From a virus: a DNA stretch of 35,927 nt. Made by a program: the position numbers and the translations under genes. The stretch spans positions 1 to 35,927 of IMG/VR virus record IMGVR_UViG_3300047678_000799, one strand, 5' to 3'. Under the pieces are notes generated by a model. The model saw only the letters and a list, made by a program, of their open reading frames with translations, ran no database searches and was not told the origin of the DNA. Shown in pieces: positions 1,916 to 34,523 of the stretch (position 1 is its first letter; each line of letters starts with the position of its first letter).

Positions 1916-2305
1916 TTAGCGGGCCTTCCGAGGCGTCTTCCGTTTCGAGGCCGACGAAGGGCTCGTGGAAGCGTGCCGTCGCAGGCATAGTTCAAGCAAC
2001 CGACTTGCGGGGATGCCCGTCACCTTGGACGCAACCTTGAGAGCGTCGAGGCTCTGATCTGACATCGGCAACCTCGCAGGACCACGGGCATCCTTGGGAG
2101 TCTCCCCTAGTACGGCGAACAACTCCTGTCGGATGATCGGCAACTGATCGTCAACAGCAGCCTGCAACCAAGCAGCCTGGGTCACGCCTTGCTTAGTACG
2201 AGCACGAGCAGCAGCAAGGCGGTCAGACTTCGGGAGCCTGTAAACGCGGAAGGTCTCGCTCGACTTCGGGGCCTTGTTTGTCTTCTTGGTGGTGGTCTTC
2301 ATCAT
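1916..2305 (-). CDS. possible tandem ribbon-helix-helix DNA-binding protein
   Basis: The 129-residue protein has a Lys/Thr-rich N-terminus and then two segments that each look like a ribbon-helix-helix unit. The first is FRVYRLPKSDRLAAARARTK with VTQAAWLQAAVDDQL. The second is ARLPMSDQSLDALKVASKVT with IPASRLLELCLRRH. Each has a short strand, a helix, a turn and a second helix. The C-terminal tail is basic. ATG at 2305 or 2302 (MMK) is preferred because AAGGA lies 7 bases upstream. RHH proteins usually repress phage or plasmid genes. No operator is proven, and the fold call is by pattern only. Confidence 0.55.
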   Translation of the reverse strand: MMKTTTKKTNKAPKSSETFRVYRLPKSDRLAAARARTKQGVTQAAWLQAAVDDQLPIIRQELFAVLGETPKDARGPARLPMSDQSLDALKVASKVTGIPASRLLELCLRRHASTSPSSASKRKTPRKAR

Positions 2306-2343
2306 CTTGTCCTTGTGAGTGGTGGTTGAAAGGGAAAAGCTGC

Positions 2344-2694
2344 TCAAGACTGATCGCGAATCGCAGCAGCAACTGACTCGTCCATCTTCAAGACCGGCTG
2401 ACCATCGGGACGTACGCCGACAACCATCAAGAACCCGAAGCCGATGCTGAAAAGCGTCTCGTCCAGGATCGCGTGGCCTTCCGTGGATTTCTCAATCGCT
2501 TCGGCCTGGGCAGGTAACAGTTCGTACCAAGCTCGGGAGTGATCCTCACGCCACGCAGCGACGATCATGGTTCGGACTTCCGGATCAACCAGATCGAGGT
2601 ACGGCCCGTGCTTCTCAGTGAGGTAGTTCAATAGCTCATCCTCCGAGTTGAAGGTGCGAGCCTTGACGTAAGGACTTTCGTAATTGTGAAACAT
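2344..2694 (-). CDS. hypothetical protein, 116 aa
   Basis: No family is recognised. It is an acidic, mixed alpha/beta protein with aromatic-rich stretches (AWREDHSRAWYELLP) and a hydrophobic beta segment, FSIGFGFLMVVGV, followed by RPDGQPVL. The start at 2694 has only a weak purine stretch (GAAAGA) upstream. A perfect 8-bp inverted repeat (GATCGAAT/ATTCGATC) lies between it and the preceding gene. It sits in a run of short leftward genes after the tail module. Confidence 0.55.
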   Translation of the reverse strand: MFHNYESPYVKARTFNSEDELLNYLTEKHGPYLDLVDPEVRTMIVAAWREDHSRAWYELLPAQAEAIEKSTEGHAILDETLFSIGFGFLMVVGVRPDGQPVLKMDESVAAAIRDQS

Positions 2695-2713
2695 ATGGGT
2701 CTTTCGTGTTAGT

Positions 2714-2739
2714 GATCGAATCCAGGGGACTATTCGATC
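2714..2739. promoter_or_regulatory. leader inverted repeat GATCGAAT/ATTCGATC
   Basis: A perfect 8-bp inverted repeat, GATCGAAT (2714-2721) and ATTCGATC (2732-2739), separated by 10 bases. It overlaps the stop codon of the upstream gene and precedes the ATG at 2694. It could be an operator, an mRNA hairpin or a weak attenuator. Confidence 0.4.
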
Positions 2740-2957
2740 GTGATGATGCTTACGTGATCGCGATCGTTAGTGCAGACGATCAAAAAGATTGGGCCAGCAA
2801 AGAATGAAGTCTCGACTTCCCAGGCATCGGGCTCGTCGCCGACCGCAAGGCACAAAGCCTTGTTGATTTCGTGGGCGTCGCGGCAGTCAGCCGGTAGCGG
2901 CAATTCCCACGAGCCCCAGTCGTTGTTCAAGTCATCGAAGGTTTCGATGGTCAACAT
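2730..2957 (-). CDS. hypothetical protein, 75 aa
   Basis: A small acidic protein beginning MLTIETFDDLNNDWGSWELP. It contains ADCRDAHEINKALCLAVGDE and a hydrophobic strand, FFAGPIFLIVCTND. No family is recognised. The ATG at 2957 has CGGAG about 7 bases upstream, which decides against an 11-codon longer reading. It starts only a few bases beyond the stop of the DUF6876-like gene, so the two are probably co-translated. Confidence 0.6.
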   Translation of the reverse strand: MLTIETFDDLNNDWGSWELPLPADCRDAHEINKALCLAVGDEPDAWEVETSFFAGPIFLIVCTNDRDHVSIITIE

Positions 2958-2959
2958 AC

Positions 2960-3313
2960 TTAGTGCTCCGAGGGAAGAAGAACGATCCAACCCTCGACGT
3001 AGACCTTCAGGCTAGGCAGCGGAAAATCGGTGTACTCGATCTTCTGCTCGATCACCGGCTTCATGCCCGAATCCTCTCGACACATGAGCACTGCCGAGTT
3101 CTCGGTGACGGTCAGTTCCCAAAGCTGAAAGTCGAGCAGTCGTGGATTGCTGCGGATGACTTTGGAAGTCTGGTAGCTGGCGATGGCGTCGATGAGCCAG
3201 TACGCCCCAGCTTGTTCTGCGAGGTACTGCATGCCCTCGGTGTAGTGCATGCCGGTGAAGTGCTTGTAGATGACTTCACCACCGGTGAACTGTTGCAGGT
3301 CTTGCTCGAGCAT
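2960..3313 (-). CDS. DUF6876 family protein
   Basis: The 117 residues follow the DUF6876 pattern: FTGGEVIYKH, then YTEGMQYLAEQAGAYWLIDA, IASYQ, FQLWELTVTENSAVLMCRED, IEYTDFPLPSLKVYVEG and a terminal VLLPSEH. The order and length match the family as I know it; its function is unknown. It is frequent in mobile elements and phages of many bacteria. The ATG at 3313 is chosen over a TTG at 3325 because GGAG lies 7 bases upstream. It is the first gene of the small-gene run after the last tail gene. Confidence 0.75.
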   Translation of the reverse strand: MLEQDLQQFTGGEVIYKHFTGMHYTEGMQYLAEQAGAYWLIDAIASYQTSKVIRSNPRLLDFQLWELTVTENSAVLMCREDSGMKPVIEQKIEYTDFPLPSLKVYVEGWIVLLPSEH

Positions 3314-8235: not shown

Positions 8236-8976
8236 CTATGCTGGACGCAGAGTCGGGAAGACCGGACTCGGGTCGTAAGTAATCTCCATCACGTAATTCC
8301 AGGAAACCGTGAACCCGGTATCCCAGGCATTGCTTCCCGAGCCCGTCCGTTTCGGCGAGCCACGTTGCACGCTCGATTGCTCCCAATGCACGGCCTGCGG
8401 GAACAACGGAGCGGGTTCGAAGGGCGCGCCCAGGTAGCCCACCGCCGAACCAGACTGAGTAACTTTCACCGTCGTAGCCTGGGTGATTTGCTGACGTACC
8501 GGAGGCCCGTTCAGGACTTCCAGGTAAATCCACCGCCCCTGACCATTCCCCTGGATGCTCACCGTCTCCTGAAAATCGAGAAGGCCCGCCCCGAGGTCAC
8601 TGCTGGGGAAGACCGCTTCGAGCGTGATGCCGTAGCTCAGGCAGTTGGCCCACTGGCCCCCGTTGAACTCGGGGAAGGAGGGTTTACGAACGATGCGGAC
8701 GCCGCCGATTGCATCCGCACTTCGGAGGGAGCGGACGATTCCGTCGTTGTCATCGAGCAGATAGGCGTCTTGGCCGTGGTAGGTGTAAGCGTTCTCAAGC
8801 GCCTGGGCGAAAGGCACGATGGATTCTGCATTCTCGGGCAGAATGAGTTGGCCGGTAATGTCCCAGGTGTGGCGTACTCCGATCTCAATCCCACTGGGGG
8901 AGAATTCGGGCTGTTTGCTGAAGGCAATGCCGCACTCGTTCAGGTTGTGTGGATAGGGGCCGTAGAGAAGTCTCAT
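8236..8976 (-). CDS. distal tail-like protein (putative)
   Basis: The 246-residue protein directly follows the tape measure gene, overlapping it by four bases (ATGA). In siphophages this position usually holds the distal tail protein. It starts MRLLYGPYPHNLNECGIAFS and shows a strand-rich pattern (WDITGQLILPEN, ANCLSYGITLEAVFP). It ends with WNYVMEITYDP, as would fit a tail ring protein. No sequence-level family is recognised, so the call rests on order and fold pattern. Confidence 0.5.
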   Translation of the reverse strand: MRLLYGPYPHNLNECGIAFSKQPEFSPSGIEIGVRHTWDITGQLILPENAESIVPFAQALENAYTYHGQDAYLLDDNDGIVRSLRSADAIGGVRIVRKPSFPEFNGGQWANCLSYGITLEAVFPSSDLGAGLLDFQETVSIQGNGQGRWIYLEVLNGPPVRQQITQATTVKVTQSGSAVGYLGAPFEPAPLFPQAVHWEQSSVQRGSPKRTGSGSNAWDTGFTVSWNYVMEITYDPSPVFPTLRPA

Positions 8977-10664
8977 TGTGCGAAGGCCCTCACGTTTGGC
9001 GCTTGGTCGGCAGACTGCTTCATCTTTTCGAGCAGTCGCACAATCAGGTCATCGAAGGCCGCGCTGACTTCGTCGAAGGCCTTCTCCTTCTGCTTGACGA
9101 GCTCCTGCTTTTTGTCCACGAAGGTCTGATCGTCGGTCTGCTCGTCGGCAAGCTGTTCCTGATCCTCGTGCTCACCAGCCGCAAGAACCTTCGAAGCCGA
9201 GTAGCCCTCGGACTGGTGATGCTGCTGCACTTTCTTGGCGAACTTGGAATCGAGGTTCCCGAGCTTCTCAAGGTCTTGCTGGGAGACCGAACTGAAATCG
9301 CCTGAGGCATCGATCTTGCGGCGCTCTTCAAGGAGTCGCGCTCGTTCGATCGGGTCCATCTTGCCGATCTGTTCCGAGGCATTCCAAATGCGGCCCTCGG
9401 CCCCGGCTCTTGCCTGCTTGGTCAGATCAAGCTGTTGCTTGGCAGCGTCGAGCGATTCCTTCGCTGCATTGAGTTGAATTTCGGCGCTGTTCTTCTCAAG
9501 GTCATTGATCTTCTTGGCAGTCTCTTCCTGCTGTTGCCATATCCGTGCACGGGATACGTCGGTGGCGTAGGCGTCATTACCTAGTTCCTCGATCGTCTGA
9601 TAGGCCTTTTTCTGCTCTTCGAGGATGGCCGCGTTACTGGCCAAGGCCTTGTCATCACCCGAGAGCCCTTTACCCGCTTTGAGTCCTGCGATACGACCCG
9701 ACGTGTCGGCACTGTTTGTTGCCTCGTCAAGGTACGTGTTCGTGCGGCGCAAATCCTGGTCGTGAGCGGCCTGGGCTCTGGCTTGTCCTTCGGCAACTCG
9801 CTGTGCTTGCTTGTTAGCAGCCGCTTCCGCCGCATCGGCCTGTTCGTTCGCATAGGTGCTGCCGTCGAGCTTGCCCCGGATGTACTGGCCACCCTTGAAT
9901 CCCGCATAGGCAGTACCAGCCACGAGAGCGACCTTAAGGCCAAGAGGCGAAGAGGCAAGAGCCCCACCGATGCCTCCGACAGCGCCACCGACACCGCCCC
10001 CGCCCTTCGCCCCGCCTGTAGCACTGCTCAAAGCTTGAGTTGCGGCTACGGCGACATTGGCGGCAGCAGCAGCCTTCGCAGCAGCGGTGTACGCTTGCCA
10101 GGCCTTAACGCCGCCATCAATGATGGCCCACGTTCCCTTGATGGCATCCATTCCCGCCTGGAACTTGGCGAGACTCTTCATGGCCTTCTCGACTGATTCC
10201 TCTTCGGCGACTCCGAAGAGAACTGCAGCCCGGGCAATATGGCCGATCCCAGTCGCCACCTGCTCGAAGCTCGATTTCAACTGTGCATGCGAGGCCTTGA
10301 TCGTGGCAGCGCTTTGCTTAGCTACCTTCTCCTGGTCTGCGAAGGCTTTCTTACGGGCTTTCTCTTCGGCGTCGAGCGACTTCATGACCGAAGCGAAGTC
10401 GGCCTTTCGCATCTTCTCGGATTCTTTGAAGAGGATGTCTTCGGCCTTGAGCGTGTCGTCGACCTTCTTCTTGGTTTCGGCGACGGAGTCCTTCGCGGCC
10501 TTGGCCGTGATCTCGACCTGCTTGGCTGCGGCCTTGGTGTGTTCCTTCAGAACCGCCTGATACGGCACCACCATCTGCTGTTGAAAGTCGCTAAGGACCG
10601 CGCGGTTACGCGGATCGTTGGCGACTAGCAGCGTGTAAAGCACGTCATGGGATTCTGACATCAT
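8973..10664 (-). CDS. tail tape measure protein
   Basis: About 563 residues. Residues 30-140 are a long Lys/Glu/Ala coiled coil. Residues about 195-260 are a Gly/Ala-rich hydrophobic stretch (GGGGVGGAVGGIGGALA and VALVAGTAYAG). Residues about 265-530 return to charged helix. This layout, and its position directly after the frameshifted chaperone genes, identify the tape measure that sets tail length. It is short for the family, so the tail should be short. The two tandem ATG codons at 10664 and 10661 follow GGAGGGAA; the second has better spacing. The gene overlaps the chaperone extension stop by about four bases. Confidence 0.8.
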   Translation of the reverse strand: MMSESHDVLYTLLVANDPRNRAVLSDFQQQMVVPYQAVLKEHTKAAAKQVEITAKAAKDSVAETKKKVDDTLKAEDILFKESEKMRKADFASVMKSLDAEEKARKKAFADQEKVAKQSAATIKASHAQLKSSFEQVATGIGHIARAAVLFGVAEEESVEKAMKSLAKFQAGMDAIKGTWAIIDGGVKAWQAYTAAAKAAAAANVAVAATQALSSATGGAKGGGGVGGAVGGIGGALASSPLGLKVALVAGTAYAGFKGGQYIRGKLDGSTYANEQADAAEAAANKQAQRVAEGQARAQAAHDQDLRRTNTYLDEATNSADTSGRIAGLKAGKGLSGDDKALASNAAILEEQKKAYQTIEELGNDAYATDVSRARIWQQQEETAKKINDLEKNSAEIQLNAAKESLDAAKQQLDLTKQARAGAEGRIWNASEQIGKMDPIERARLLEERRKIDASGDFSSVSQQDLEKLGNLDSKFAKKVQQHHQSEGYSASKVLAAGEHEDQEQLADEQTDDQTFVDKKQELVKQKEKAFDEVSAAFDDLIVRLLEKMKQSADQAPNVRAFAQ

Positions 10665-11481
10665 TTCCCTCCGCCGTAGATTTGGCAGAGGGTGGTCACT
10701 AGCTCGGACTGTTGGTATCGAGATACCAGCCGCTCGATGATCCCCAGGTGCTGGCGAAGGATGGAATCCCTACGCCACGAGGTCGGGAGAGTCCCGGCTT
10801 TGGATTCGTAGTAGAGTTGGAGCGCCCGACGAATCCGGGGGAGATCACGTTCCAGTCCCCGGGATTCTTCAGGGCTTTTCTTGGGGCACGAGCCGCAGGG
10901 CGTCGGCATGCCTATCGGTCGCCGAACGGGCTTGCCGCCACGCTCCAAGACCTTGCCGTCGTTATGCTGCCACTTCTGGCAGAACGAACATGAGAGCCGA
11001 GCAATTGCGGGGTGCTGCAAGAGGAGCAGCACACCCTTCGTCAGTTTCCCAAGCGTTCCTGCTCGGCGACTTCGCCGACCGATTGGCCAGTCTGTTCGGC
11101 TTCGAATTCGTAATCGGCAAGTTCTTGCTTCTTGTCATCAGCCCAAAGTGGATCGAGATCACTCGGCTCGTCACCCATGACGATTGCGTTAAGGCGGTCG
11201 TGCAGAGCGCTGCGGACACCGGCAAGCGACCGACCTGCAGGAGGGACTTTATTCCCATCCTTGTCGGTTAAATCCCAAGACTCGATCCGCTTGGCAACGA
11301 AGTCCTGCGTGAACTTCAGACGCGCTTCGGGCTTGAGCTTGTTGTACGCGGTGGCCCAAGCGACGTTGTCGGCCTTGACCACAGGTCGGTAAACAAACCG
11401 AAGTCCCGCGTGGAGGCCGGGGACTGGTGCGATGTACGCTGGTTCGCTGTAACCGTCGATGATGTAGTTGCTCTGGTTCAT
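10661..11481 (-). CDS. tail assembly chaperone GT (product of -1 frameshift)
   Basis: This is the extended product expected when ribosomes slip at GGGAAAC (11044-11050). The first 146 codons are those of the shorter chaperone. Reading then continues in the -1 frame from 11044, with no stop, to TGA at 10661, giving about 273 residues. The extension (T part) reads LTKGVLLLLQHPAIARLSC and has two CxxC pairs (CSFC, CGSC), then a helical C-terminus. In lambda-type phages the GT protein binds the tape measure and recruits the tail tube subunit, and the tape measure gene follows here. The T frame has no good ATG of its own (only GTG at 11032), which supports frameshifting. Confidence 0.75.
11009..11036 (-). 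promoter_or_regulatory. frameshift-stimulating hairpin
   Basis: On the minus strand TGCTGC pairs perfectly with GCAGCA around a 7-base TCCTCTT loop. The stem is extended by G-C pairs (GGG and CCC) around one bulge. It begins 7 bases after the GGGAAAC heptamer, which is the usual spacing for a stimulatory structure. It lies inside the T-part coding frame. Confidence 0.75.
11041..11481 (-). CDS. tail assembly chaperone G
   Basis: A 146-residue helical protein. Its sequence includes a PGLHAGLRFVYRPVV strand, AWATAYNKLKPEARLKF, and an acidic C-terminus (DLDPLWADDKKQELADYEFE). It sits between the tail tube and tape measure genes, the standard place for the lambda gpG-like chaperone. The last codons are TTG GGA AAC TGA, so the slippery heptamer GGGAAAC lies directly before the stop. 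GGAG is 9 bases before the ATG at 11481, but that GGAG is inside a CTCCGG/CCGGAG stem and the ATG is inside an outer GGTTCA/TGAACC stem. Translation may therefore be dampened. Confidence 0.75.
   Translation of the reverse strand: MNQSNYIIDGYSEPAYIAPVPGLHAGLRFVYRPVVKADNVAWATAYNKLKPEARLKFTQDFVAKRIESWDLTDKDGNKVPPAGRSLAGVRSALHDRLNAIVMGDEPSDLDPLWADDKKQELADYEFEAEQTGQSVGEVAEQERLGN
11044..11050 (-). promoter_or_regulatory. -1 ribosomal slippery heptamer GGGAAAC
   Basis: In the reading frame of the chaperone the sequence is G GGA AAC, which matches the X XXY YYZ rule, and the next codon is the TGA stop. Lambda uses GGGAAAG at the same functional place. The -1 frame stays open for 127 further codons. 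Confidence 0.85.
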
Positions 11482-11534: not shown

Positions 11535-12410
11535 CTACGGCGTCGAATCCAGAGTGGTGATTAGCTCACGAGTGATCGTGCCGCCGCTGATCGTCGCACG
11601 AGCGGTACCCTGCAAAGGTAGCATCAATTCAGTCTTCCCCTGAACCGTGAGGGCCTGCTGGGGATATTGCAACGCGGCGAATGCGAACGTCAGAACGTAT
11701 CCACCTGCGGTCAGAACCAAGGTGGTCGGATCTCCTGCGATGGCGATGTCGTACAAGTCGGTGTTGCCGAAGTACGGGACCGAGGCATTGAACGTAATCA
11801 GACGATCTTGGGGGACGATCCTAGTAGCAGTTGTTGAGTTGTAGAACTCGACGGCAAGCTGGTTGTCGATCGTGAGTGACCACTCCTTGACGCTGCGAGC
11901 AACGCTCAAGATCGTGAGCACGCTATCGGTGAACAACAGAGGCTCGGTGCCCTGATAAGTCACCCCCGTAAGCGATCCAGCGTTGGCCGGGGTCTCAGTC
12001 TTGCCGACCACTTCAAGGGCCAGCTTCATTTCCGTGCCCTCAGACGCTGAAAACGTCGCCTTATTGACCATACAGCCGTCGTAGGCCATGACCTTCTCAG
12101 TCTTGTCCACGGTGACGTATCGGCTCGGCAGGGTCTCGGCCAAGGCGTAGGTGTTGCCGCTTGCAACTGCACCAAGAATCCACGGCAGCAGTGCGGCCAG
12201 TTCTTCCGGGCTCGGGGACATGTCGATTGGCCCACCGATGCTCTCATTACCCTTTCGAGTTCGAGCAGCCATGTGCGACCGAGTCCCGCGAATGCCGGTA
12301 GCATCGATGTGCTGCACCGTCTTGGCGACGCCGCACGAGTTGAACTCGAAGCCTGTGGTTGGACCACTACCCGCCCCTATCGCCAGTTGACTAGCAAAAC
12401 CTTGGCCCAT
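11535..12410 (-). CDS. major tail tube protein (putative)
   Basis: The 291-residue protein begins MGQGFASQLAIGAGSGPTTG and is strand-rich throughout (KLALEVVGKTET, WSLTIDNQLAVEFYN, YVLTFAFAALQYPQQAL). It ends in TARATISGGTITRELITTL. Length, composition and its place just before the tail chaperones and after the tail terminator match tail tube proteins of siphophages. There is no contractile sheath gene in the window, so the tail is taken as non-contractile. GAGGGTGAT precedes the ATG at 12410, and the upstream stop is one base away. Confidence 0.65.
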   Translation of the reverse strand: MGQGFASQLAIGAGSGPTTGFEFNSCGVAKTVQHIDATGIRGTRSHMAARTRKGNESIGGPIDMSPSPEELAALLPWILGAVASGNTYALAETLPSRYVTVDKTEKVMAYDGCMVNKATFSASEGTEMKLALEVVGKTETPANAGSLTGVTYQGTEPLLFTDSVLTILSVARSVKEWSLTIDNQLAVEFYNSTTATRIVPQDRLITFNASVPYFGNTDLYDIAIAGDPTTLVLTAGGYVLTFAFAALQYPQQALTVQGKTELMLPLQGTARATISGGTITRELITTLDSTP

Positions 12411-13685: not shown

Positions 13686-15074
13686 TTACCCCGCACTTAT
13701 CTTGAGCGTGCCGCTGTCGCTCCAAACGGCACCGGCAATGCTCGGGTTGCTGGTAGGGATGTCAGCAAAAACGATCGTTCCCATAACCTTTAGCGAGCCG
13801 GTCGGCGTCCCTGTTAGGTCGCCCGCCTCAATTGAGCCGACAAGCAGGCGGGTCTTTGTGAATGTATCGCTATCGGCTTTCAAATAAATCTGTTGGCCGG
13901 TAACGATGCTGATGTTCGTGTCGTCGCTTGCCTGGATACTCGTCTCGTCGTCAAGCGTGATCGAATGAGCACGCAAGTTGTAGAATTGCGGCGAGCTAGC
14001 CGTATCTAAATCCTGCGGCAGTGTATCGCCGTCCGCTCCGGGTGGCCCCTCGGCCCCGTCGTCGCCTTTTCTGGCGATTAGTGCCCAGTGTCCGGTATGG
14101 TCGGGCGGATTTTCATTTGTGTTATCAGTCCCATCCGTCATTAAATAAGAGCTACCGTCTACGCTTACAGCGTCCCACTGGTGATACGTTGTTTCGTTAT
14201 CCCAAGTGCCGAGCCAATTGACTGTCGGCCCTGGTGCTCCGTCTTGTCCGTCCGCTCCGGGGTCGCCCTGGTCGCCTTTATCGCCCGGTGGTCCGCCTGG
14301 GTCGCCGGTATCGCCCTTATCTCCCTGATCGCCTTTTTCGCCCTGGTCGCCCTGTGGTCCGGGGTCGCCTTTGCTCGAAAGTAATGCCCATTTATCAAGG
14401 TTGCTCGCAGGCATATCGTCATGCGAGCTAGACACGTAGAGATAGTAAGAGCTACCGTCTATCGTAACGGCGTCGAATTCAGCGTAGGTAGTGTCACTAT
14501 TCCAGTCGCCGGTCCAATGGAGAGTAGGGCCGGGAGTGCCACTCACGTCAGTAAACGATAAAGTACCGCTACCGTTCGTTGTTAATGCTTGCCCGTTCGA
14601 GCCGTCGCTCGTCGGTAAGACAAAGCTATTGACTGTACCTGCGGAGGTATCAAGGTTTTGACCGCCGCCTAAGCTAATCGTGCTACTGCCGTCCGTTGTG
14701 ATCGCCCCATTGTTGATGTTGACGCCGCCGCCATTAGCTTGGATTAGCGGGTTGCCGTTATCGGCAATAGGGTGCCCGTTGCAATTCAGGTCGAGTTGTA
14801 AAAGTATCGTGCCGCCTTGCTCGCCGCCTAGCACTACTCGCCCCGTGCCGTCCGGGTTAATCGTTATGTCAGCGCCCCCCGTGCTAACGAGACTCTTACT
14901 AGAGCAATCCAAGTCGTCTTGAAAAACGATGGGGCCGGAGTTGCCGCCGAGAGCCGCAACGCCTGCGAGACTATGTCCCTGGCAATCTAAATCGCCGCCG
15001 AGTGCAGGGCTTGTGTCGTCGGACACGCGAGAGAACGCGTCCGAACCACCGCCAGACTGATTGATGACCGCCAT
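13686..15074 (-). CDS. collagen-like tail fibre with two carbohydrate-binding-like modules
   Basis: A 462-residue protein. Residues 1-175 are repeated short beta units with DLDCxxxxL patterns (DLDCQGHSL, DLDCSSKSL, DLNCNGHPI). Residues about 182-235 and 282-335 are two related modules, each with W-x-G-x-W, TTY, DAV and DGSSY. They resemble chitin- and carbohydrate-binding folds of the CBM5/12 type. Between them, residues 236-282 are about 16 collagen Gly-X-Y triplets (GDPGPQGDQGEKGDQ), and a shorter run follows at 336-350. The C-terminus (VLVGSIEAGDLTGTP region) looks like a fibre tip. Its codons use more T and A at third positions than its neighbours, suggesting separate origin. It sits unusually early, inside the head-tail region. 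Confidence 0.75.
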   Translation of the reverse strand: MAVINQSGGGSDAFSRVSDDTSPALGGDLDCQGHSLAGVAALGGNSGPIVFQDDLDCSSKSLVSTGGADITINPDGTGRVVLGGEQGGTILLQLDLNCNGHPIADNGNPLIQANGGGVNINNGAITTDGSSTISLGGGQNLDTSAGTVNSFVLPTSDGSNGQALTTNGSGTLSFTDVSGTPGPTLHWTGDWNSDTTYAEFDAVTIDGSSYYLYVSSSHDDMPASNLDKWALLSSKGDPGPQGDQGEKGDQGDKGDTGDPGGPPGDKGDQGDPGADGQDGAPGPTVNWLGTWDNETTYHQWDAVSVDGSSYLMTDGTDNTNENPPDHTGHWALIARKGDDGAEGPPGADGDTLPQDLDTASSPQFYNLRAHSITLDDETSIQASDDTNISIVTGQQIYLKADSDTFTKTRLLVGSIEAGDLTGTPTGSLKVMGTIVFADIPTSNPSIAGAVWSDSGTLKISAG

Positions 15075-24778: not shown

Positions 24779-25465
24779 CTAAGCCAACACGAGGGCGCGG
24801 TCCAGCACTCGCCCAACCTGCACGTGATTCCAAGGCTTGCCGTTCCTAGTTTCGTGGCCTGTGGAGTTCAAGTGCCGAGCGATCCCGTTATTCGATTCCC
24901 CACCGGCTTTCAGCGACAGCATGATGGGGACCAGATCAGCGTAGGCCTCGTCAGCCTTGGCACGATTCACGGCGATGCTTCGCTTTCGACCCTTGGCGCT
25001 CGCTTCTTTGGTCAGCAACTTGCACCGGGGATCATGCGTCCCGAGTTTCCCGCCACGAGCCTTGTAGGCCTTGAGAGCGTCCTTAGTTCGGATGCCGGTC
25101 TGCTCGGCTTCCCACTCGGCGACCACGGCCAAGATGCCGACGATCATCTTGTTGATGAACGGGCAATCACAGGCCACGATCTCGACATCGGTGTTGACCA
25201 GGGCGAGCAGGAACGCGGCATTGCGCGAGAGCCTGTCCCACTTCGCGATGAGCAGGCAGGACTTTGTGCGGCGAGCATGGGCTAGGGCTTTGGCGAGTTC
25301 GGGACGGTCGTTCTTGCGTCCGCTCTCAGCCTCCTGGTACGCGGCAAGGAGTTGGCCGTTCTTGGCGATGTAGGTGGTGACGGTGGCTTGTTGGGCTTCG
25401 AGGCCGAGTCCGGATTTGCGTTGTCTGTCGGTGCTGACTCGGTAGTAGGCGATGAATCGTTTCAT
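24779..25465 (-). CDS. serine recombinase (resolvase/invertase family)
   Basis: The 228-residue protein starts MKRFIAYYRVSTDRQ, with the catalytic serine at about residue 11. GLGLEAQ, ESGRKNDRPELAKAL and KWDRLSRN (about 75-82) complete the resolvase catalytic domain. A C-terminal helix-turn-helix-like part (NGIARHLNSTGHETRNGKPW) ends the protein. It lacks the long C-terminus of large serine integrases, so it is a resolvase-size enzyme. GGAG is 8 bases before the ATG at 25465. Its leader has a GTTCAA hairpin like the portal's. It may serve integration, excision or dimer resolution for this phage; partner sites are unknown. Confidence 0.85.
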   Translation of the reverse strand: MKRFIAYYRVSTDRQRKSGLGLEAQQATVTTYIAKNGQLLAAYQEAESGRKNDRPELAKALAHARRTKSCLLIAKWDRLSRNAAFLLALVNTDVEIVACDCPFINKMIVGILAVVAEWEAEQTGIRTKDALKAYKARGGKLGTHDPRCKLLTKEASAKGRKRSIAVNRAKADEAYADLVPIMLSLKAGGESNNGIARHLNSTGHETRNGKPWNHVQVGRVLDRALVLA

Positions 25466-25480
25466 GGGGTGGTCTCCATC

Positions 25481-25524
25481 AGTTGAACGTGAGTGAAGGC
25501 GGGTATCCCGACGCCTGTTCAACT
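25481..25524. promoter_or_regulatory. leader hairpin of the serine recombinase (TTGAAC arms)
   Basis: AGTTGAAC (25481-25488) and GTTCAACT (25517-25524) are perfect 8-bp arms. An inner AGGCG (25497-25501) and CGCCT (25512-25516) stem lies between them. On the minus strand the hairpin ends four bases before the GGAG of the recombinase gene. Confidence 0.55.
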
Positions 25525-33284: not shown

Positions 33285-33326
33285 GTGTCGTTGTGTGGCA
33301 CGCTTTGGCATGGCGTGTCACTTGAG

Positions 33327-33409
33327 TACCGGAGGTGGGAGTCGAACCCACACGCCCTTTCGGACACAGGATTTTGAATCCAGCGCGTCTGCCATTCCGC
33401 CACTCCGGC
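33327..33409 (-). tRNA. tRNA-Leu (anticodon CAA)
   Basis: On the minus strand the sequence begins GCCGGAG and ends CTCCGGTA, forming the 7-bp acceptor stem with a G-U first pair and an A discriminator. The anticodon loop is TTCAAAA, giving CAA. The anticodon stem has one U-U mismatch (CTGGA/TCCTG). The T arm is GTGGG-TTCGACT-CCCAC. A long variable arm between the anticodon and T arms supports the Leu class. The 3' CCA is not encoded. The tRNA is 83 bases. tRNA genes are common phage attachment sites; the integrase gene lies on its 5' side. Confidence 0.9.
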
Positions 33410-33524
33410 TAAGTTGTTCTAAAGTAACGACTTGAATAGGGTGGTCAAGGGCCGAAAACCTCGTTTTGTCCGCGATTCTGTCCGCGTTTCGGTAAGAAAC
33501 GACACCCGTGGACGTAGTAATCCA

Positions 33525-34523
33525 ATGAGAAAACGAGAACCATTCTACAAACACAGTCACAAGGCGTATTACGTCGAGATCAACGGCCGTCAGATTCGGC
33601 TCGGCACCGAAGAGAAAGCCGCTTGGGACGAGTATCACCGTCTGATGGCGGGCAAGCAACCCGCAACCGATAAGACGCCGGCTCGCGACATCATCGACCA
33701 GTTTCTTCGGTGGACCGAACGACGGTCGGCACCCTTGACCGTTGCATGGTACACGCGCCACTTGACCCGCTTCAAGGCGTTCATCGGCGGCCTGACGGTC
33801 GGCGAACTCAGAAAGCATCATGTCACGCAATGGGTTGCCGACGAGTTCGAGTCGGATGCTTCGGCCAGCTACCTGAACGGCGCAATTCGGGCGGCCGTTC
33901 GCCCGTTCCTATGGGCGTTCGATGAAGAGATTATCGCGACGAATCCATTGCCCAAGGTGAAGCGGCCGACACCCGAGCCGCGCGAGAATTACACGACGCC
34001 AGAACAGTTCGCGAAAGCGCTGGCGTTGGTTTCTGCCGACGATCCATTTCGCGACCTACTCGAATTCTTGTGGCTGACCGGCGCACGGCCGCAAGAGGCA
34101 GTGATAATCGAAGCCTGCCAATGGGATCGCGAAGCCGGGACGGTCACCTTGCCCCGCAAGTCGAGCAAAGGGAAGAAATACAACCGAGTGATTTACCTGA
34201 ACCCGCACGCGGCAGGCATCATCGCTCGACTTGCCCTGAAACGTCCTGACGGGGCGTTGTTCCGAAACAAGGTTGACAACGCCTGGGGAAAGAACTCCCT
34301 AACCAGCAGATTCCGAGGGTTGCGGAAGCGTCTCGGCTTCCCCTTCCATGCCTACTTGCTTCGGCATGGTTGGGTCACACAGTCGCTTAAGAAAGGCGTC
34401 GATTCGGTGACGGTCGGCATTCTCGCCGGTCATCGCGACCCCAGCATGGTTGCCAAGGTCTACCAGCACCTTGCAAAAGATAACGCCTACTTGCACGAAA
34501 AGAATCGGCAAGCATCAGGCTGA
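33525..34523 (+). CDS. int: tyrosine recombinase / phage integrase
   Basis: A 332-residue protein from the ATG at 33525. Residues 1-60 are a small N-terminal DNA-binding part (KAYYVEINGRQIRLGT), followed by a SAM-like core-binding domain (about 62-150). The catalytic domain has R188 in WLTGARPQEA, K215 in SSKGKK, R280 in YLLRH, H303 in AGHRD and the nucleophile Y313 in VYQHL. The usual first His of the HxxR box is Tyr (Y277), a variant often seen in planctomycete-type integrases. A longer ORF from TTG at 33432 exists but looks like leader. It probably integrates an element next to tRNA-Leu. Confidence 0.85.
   Translation: MRKREPFYKHSHKAYYVEINGRQIRLGTEEKAAWDEYHRLMAGKQPATDKTPARDIIDQFLRWTERRSAPLTVAWYTRHLTRFKAFIGGLTVGELRKHHVTQWVADEFESDASASYLNGAIRAAVRPFLWAFDEEIIATNPLPKVKRPTPEPRENYTTPEQFAKALALVSADDPFRDLLEFLWLTGARPQEAVIIEACQWDREAGTVTLPRKSSKGKKYNRVIYLNPHAAGIIARLALKRPDGALFRNKVDNAWGKNSLTSRFRGLRKRLGFPFHAYLLRHGWVTQSLKKGVDSVTVGILAGHRDPSMVAKVYQHLAKDNAYLHEKNRQASG

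Follow-up and report, generated by a model that had tools for sequence, protein, structure and literature searches.

A very probable −1 programmed ribosomal frameshift in the tail-chaperone gene of a siphovirus with relatives in Planctomycetota genomes

A −1 frameshift in the tail-chaperone gene is well known in tailed phages. The virus record IMGVR_UViG_3300047678_000799, whose positions 1 to 35,927 make up the 35,927-nucleotide stretch analyzed here (the window), contains two overlapping frames, G and T, between a tail tube gene and a long ORF. Judged from comparison of sequences, the window very probably uses −1 programmed ribosomal frameshifting in a siphovirus tail-chaperone gene. We observed the anatomy of the signal and found that relatives keep it and that both frames are conserved as coding sequence.

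All parts of the signal lie on the minus strand of the window. The G gene (11041..11481), a predicted tail assembly chaperone by homology, predicted fold and position, starts at the ATG at 11481 and runs in the zero frame for 146 codons plus its stop, the TGA at 11043-11041. Its 3’ end is read CGC TTG GGA AAC TGA and thereby holds, near the end of G and in phase, a slippery heptamer of the X_XXY_YYZ type, G_GGA_AAC (11044..11050). Counted from the heptamer’s last base, the −1 frame is open for the 127 codons of T (10664..11044; stop TGA at 10663-10661) and encodes a conserved domain that has a homologue at each locus compared. Its stop and the ATG of the next ORF (8973-10664) share bases in an ATGA. 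The first-pass annotation, which gave no strand, had described GGGAAAC in the zero frame directly before a TGA, 127 open codons in the −1 frame reaching the tape measure start, and a GT product of 273 residues. The first two points were borne out at 11050-11044 and 10664-11044, respectively, and the predicted length also agrees with the ORFs (146+127 = 273).

The heptamer itself is not rare, since GGGAAAC occurs four times in the window where 5.45 occurrences are expected. Its phase and position are more informative: an X_XXY_YYZ motif with AAA or TTT as YYY is in phase at 3 of 6248 codon pairs in the window’s structural genes, and the chance of an in-phase heptamer is approximately 0.0005 at exactly this codon pair and approximately 0.014 anywhere in the 30-codon overlap. 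The open −1 frame alone is weak evidence because several genes in the window have −1 frames longer than 127 codons.

Immediately upstream of G is the tail tube gene (11535..12410, minus strand; Pfam PF18906 Phage_tube_2, E 1.5e-22; PHROG 290). The downstream ORF (8973..10664, minus strand) had no Pfam match and is a probable tape measure gene, a positional assignment accompanied by its length and its helical, coiled-coil-like sequence. The G and T frames thus lie between a tube gene and a tape measure gene, the latter assigned by position only, and a PF18906 tube gene precedes G at every locus tested (the window, L184, L208, L209 and L217). At another relative, L188, T is directly followed by a gene (2158-3252, plus strand) whose protein is 30% identical to that of the window’s 5219-7000 gene, with no tape measure gene; this chaperone pair may belong to a different gene order or to a reduced element. 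Elsewhere in the structural region of the window, the translation of 13686-15074 (minus strand) has collagen-like Gly-X-Y stretches (GDKGDQGDPG...). The record also carries a serine recombinase/resolvase (24779-25522, minus strand; PF00239, E 4.9e-24) as well as a tyrosine integrase (33432-34523, plus strand; PHROG integrase, E 1.1e-45). The integrase adjoins a tRNA-Leu (CAA) gene (33326-33409, minus strand), an arrangement that suggests attachment at the tRNA, and the window showed no direct repeats 30 bases or longer.

Relatives of the locus were reached through the terminase, which led to virus contigs, and then through profiles of G and T. Scans of viral and genome contigs with single proteins (G, T, capsid and tail tube) found nothing, and neither G nor the tail tube protein had a tblastn match in a phage collection. 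One virus contig, G007 (read as L176), encodes a homologous tail tube protein and G; the window’s G (family alignment A6) and its T domain are each 35% identical to their L176 counterparts. A two-protein G profile matched 10 of 95 genomes belonging to the same family as a Gemmataceae MAG; one match was weak. The T profile matched 11 of the 102 genomes in the order and, in a draw of 392 genomes across the phylum, 19; several of these matches were weak or fragmentary. Altogether 24 further homologous loci were identified, 23 in Planctomycetota genomes and one on the virus contig, and by the company of these relatives the window’s own host would be a planctomycete.

Every one of the 24 other loci carries an in-phase shifty heptamer at the corresponding position. 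Across the 25 loci the motif is AAAAAAC in 13, GGGAAAC in eight, AAAAAAA in two, and GGGAAAG and GGGGGAA in one each, and the G stop codon follows zero to eight codons past it. In L176, TTGGGAAAC stands in the same phase and is followed by four codons and TAA. The junction of L183 (G037:C922) is G_GGG_GAA; GGGGGAA is the unusual ‘fivetwo’ motif from SEA-PHAGES genomes (PMC10885494). Wherever G is intact, T lies in its −1 frame, and at no examined locus are the two fused in one frame.

The copies L203, L193/L206, L220, L221 and L227 were classed as degenerate, unclear or truncated. L203 (G051:C346) and L193/L206 (G074:C1:5262730-5263385) have a disrupted G or T frame, owing either to decay or to a sequencing error. 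L203 was kept among the 25 loci for the heptamer and hairpin counts despite broken G and T frames, and the others were excluded. At L220 (G511:C1:7457098-7457352, minus strand) a T fragment lies in frame inside a 510-codon capsid-like ORF, perhaps a prophage remnant left by a deletion between the capsid and chaperone genes. The degenerate copies (L203, L206 and L220), together with the origin of the window in a single metagenomic virus record, could prompt the view that the signal arose by chance or has decayed in a degenerate prophage, and has no function. We give this view practically no weight, as neither frame of the window is interrupted, both are conserved, and 25 divergent loci keep the signal.

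The heptamers also bear on how the frame might change. RNA polymerase, rather than the ribosome, could slip at the motif, and the AAAAAAC and AAAAAAA of the relatives do provide runs of six or seven A residues. The longest run in the window’s GGGAAAC is three, however, and a ribosomal shift fits the conserved hairpin, which has compensatory pairs and stands at ribosomal spacing. Polymerase slippage is left a negligible probability.

T could, alternatively, be translated on its own, either from its own start or by ribosomes that re-initiate once past the G stop, with the heptamer there by coincidence. The T frame of the window does offer a GTG (11032) 8 nt and a TTG (11020) 20 nt after the G stop, but no Shine-Dalgarno-like sequence lies at a usable distance before either codon. 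In seven of the 25 loci (one of them degenerate) there is no ATG, GTG or TTG between the heptamer and the first conserved cysteine of T, yet the T-frame residues LxxGVxLLLxxP, which precede the zinc-ribbon-like motif, are conserved. The conserved G-V codon pair of T lies 8 nt past the heptamer in all 25 loci. Because the possible starts lack a Shine-Dalgarno sequence in the window and are absent from the seven loci, T is best read as fused to G. An independent start would furthermore leave the in-phase shifty heptamers at every junction unexplained, and we consider it highly improbable.

Structure in the RNA downstream, at a suitable spacing, is a common but not universal part of such signals. 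In the window, a spacer of 7 nt (TGACGAA) separates the heptamer from a conserved, predicted stimulatory hairpin (11009..11036) of 10 bp with one bulged U and a 7-nt loop, formed by the strands GGG.UGUGCUGC and GCAGCACCCC (11036-11009). An earlier description of a hairpin seven bases after the heptamer, with a 6-bp core and extra G-C pairs, was right but modest. The hairpin has an energy of −17.5 kcal/mol and its 40-nt segment a z of −3.9; the overall energy of an 81-nt fold that includes the heptamer is ordinary (z −0.62). At other positions in the same two window genes, 4.8% give an equally strong hairpin. In most relatives a strong hairpin begins 4-9 nt after the heptamer, and at 16 of the 25 loci it ranks in the top 5% of positions in its own genes. 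L176 has a perfect 12-bp hairpin 7 nt past its heptamer in a sequence wholly different from that of the window.

The pairing itself shows signs of conservation. Compensatory changes occur at hairpin pairs 7-21, 9-19 and 10-18. In the 10-bp register, 12 selected sequences (A7) pair in 95% of cells with six pairs changed on both sides, values inflated and biased by selection as these rows were picked because they pair; in the unselected 25-row set (A8), 70.8% of cells are paired. In A7 and A8 alike, the covariation score was reached by none of 500 shuffles, and sliding the partner strand out of register lowered every main measure.

Could this hairpin be a by-product of coding constraint, with a heptamer that works without it? 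The outer stem, GGGGTG/CACCCC, coincides with the conserved G-V and H-P codons of T, and codons of the form GGN GTN ... CAY CCN are partly self-complementary. The hairpins of L188, L201 and L203 are, moreover, no better than background positions. Synonymous recoding of the downstream protein, which keeps the protein, nonetheless usually loses the hairpin: the window’s hairpin beats 198 of 200 recodings and is matched in strength by two, and in L176, L182, L200 and L212 none of 200 equals the native one. Against the mean of its own synonymous recodings, each of the 25 hairpins is the more stable (mean z −1.9 over loci that are not independent), and L176 and L182 have strong stems despite different registers. 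A by-product of coding is therefore unlikely, though it keeps more probability than polymerase slippage or an independent T start.

We also considered a possible stimulator upstream of the heptamer, a Shine-Dalgarno-like AGGA whose distance to the second base of the motif is 7 nt. A similar element is present in 20 of the 25 loci as compared to 21% at other positions. Synonymous redraws, however, give an expectation of 15.1 loci and reach 20 in 29 of 2000 runs, and the window’s own element arises in 61% of them. The element mostly reflects amino-acid composition, and we do not claim it as a stimulator.

The window’s G had no match in Pfam and none in PHROGs at E 0.01, and the best match of the G family to a curated chaperone was Phage_TAC_4 (E 0.046) in one of 10 members. 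No solved structure searched by sequence convincingly matches G. The structural model of G (pLDDT 88) aligned, among the rows listed, with 3klu (B. subtilis YqbN, Z 6.2), 5ir0 (V. cholerae ORF19, a protein of a PICI-like element, Z 5.3) and 2ob9 (the HK97 tail chaperone, Z 4.7), and Foldseek matched it to the Bacillus phage Gemini chaperone at E 3.6e-4. The modeled fold thus appears to resemble the HK97 and YqbN tail chaperones, a supportive likeness with Z below 8 and only 7-9% sequence identity to these two proteins. For T, neither Pfam nor PHROGs gave a match at useful E-values, the fold search with its model (pLDDT 84) gave no convincing match, and no solved structure matched by sequence. 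The T family alignment (A5) has four invariant cysteine columns, CxxC and PCxxC(P)K, followed by a long, helical C-terminal part; in the window the motif is CxxC...PxPCxxCPK and resembles a zinc ribbon. That T binds zinc is a guess from these cysteines.

From this evidence we infer the ribosomal shift itself, the ratio of G to G-T and a role in assembly. Most ribosomes would end at the TGA at 11043-11041 and release the 146-aa G. When the P site holds GGA and the A site AAC, a minority may re-pair on GGG and AAA while the hairpin 7 nt downstream would slow the ribosome. Ribosomes that shift would continue in the −1 frame and produce the 273-aa G-T. By analogy with lambda, the coat around the tape measure protein would consist of many copies of G and few of G-T; the T domain, which matches no known family or fold, may recruit tail-tube subunits. 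The rate of shifting could be low because G_GGA_AAC, like A_AAA_AAC, shifts with low efficiency in E. coli, although insertion elements probably use both (PMC4066793).

The closest well-known parallel is G/GT of lambda (G_GGA_AAG), which has the same order of tube, G, T and tape measure genes, a −1 shift near the end of G, and long and short chaperones. It differs in the final base of the heptamer (G, where the window has C), while the window’s heptamer stands directly before the G stop and its G and T lack a match among curated chaperone families. The lambda logic, proposed from the sequence at first pass, is supported by the homologous gene pairs, in-phase heptamers, covarying hairpin, tail-tube synteny and chaperone-like predicted fold of G. 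Burkholderia phage KL1 is similar in another way: its gp18/gp19 have GGGAAAC immediately before TGA, products of 142 and 264 aa (146 and 273 in the window) and a predicted downstream stem-loop (PMC3483164), but in KL1 one more gene separates T from the tape measure gene. The proteins were set against KL1 only through a search of the phage collection with the window’s G, which gave no match. GGGAAAC is likewise the chaperone shift site of Caulobacter phage Colossus (PMC3556154) and archaeal virus HCTV-1 (PMC5009743); these viruses have unrelated hosts and were compared with the window by heptamer alone. In a more distant phage (L005/G004, 44% terminase identity), a small gene ends GAA AAA AAA GAC TAA and is followed, as in the window, by an open −1 frame gene and a long ORF, but it has no detectable homology to G. 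GGGAAAC at this junction has thus already been reported (KL1, Colossus and HCTV-1), and the phenomenon is not new in kind. What is newer is the Planctomycetota-wide family, its covarying hairpin, a zinc-ribbon-like T family that is unlisted, and the near-uniform AAC second codon. In the literature we found no description of a tail-chaperone frameshift for phages of Planctomycetota hosts, nor in Gemmata prophages.

The A-site codon is AAC in 21 of the 25 loci, whereas the best heptamers in E. coli end in AAG (PMC4066793). Of the 23 host genomes, 20 carry tRNA-Lys(CUU) and 21 tRNA-Lys(UUU), as confirmed by ARAGORN. It has been suggested that the second lysine tRNA pairs tightly with AAG (reviewed in PMC5009743), and AAG would therefore be disfavored in these hosts. 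This idea is only a lead because, among 83 species having both lysine tRNAs, 46 have AAG motifs in their insertion elements (PMC4066793), and the genome with the sole AAG site among the 25 loci (L200, genome G055) itself carries tRNA-Lys(CUU). That the planctomycete siphovirus family has a chaperone frameshift tuned to a decoding pool unlike that of E. coli is doubtful at present. If true, the lysine and asparagine tRNAs of the host could be recognized from the slippery heptamers.

For gene calling, these results are a correction: ordinary annotation gives two overlapping genes and misses the predicted 273-residue product. They also document the chaperone frameshift in Planctomycetota phages with a family alignment, a conserved hairpin and a T domain that is absent from Pfam and PHROGs. 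The recurrent AAC codon turns this family into a testable question of how host tRNA sets shape slippery sites.
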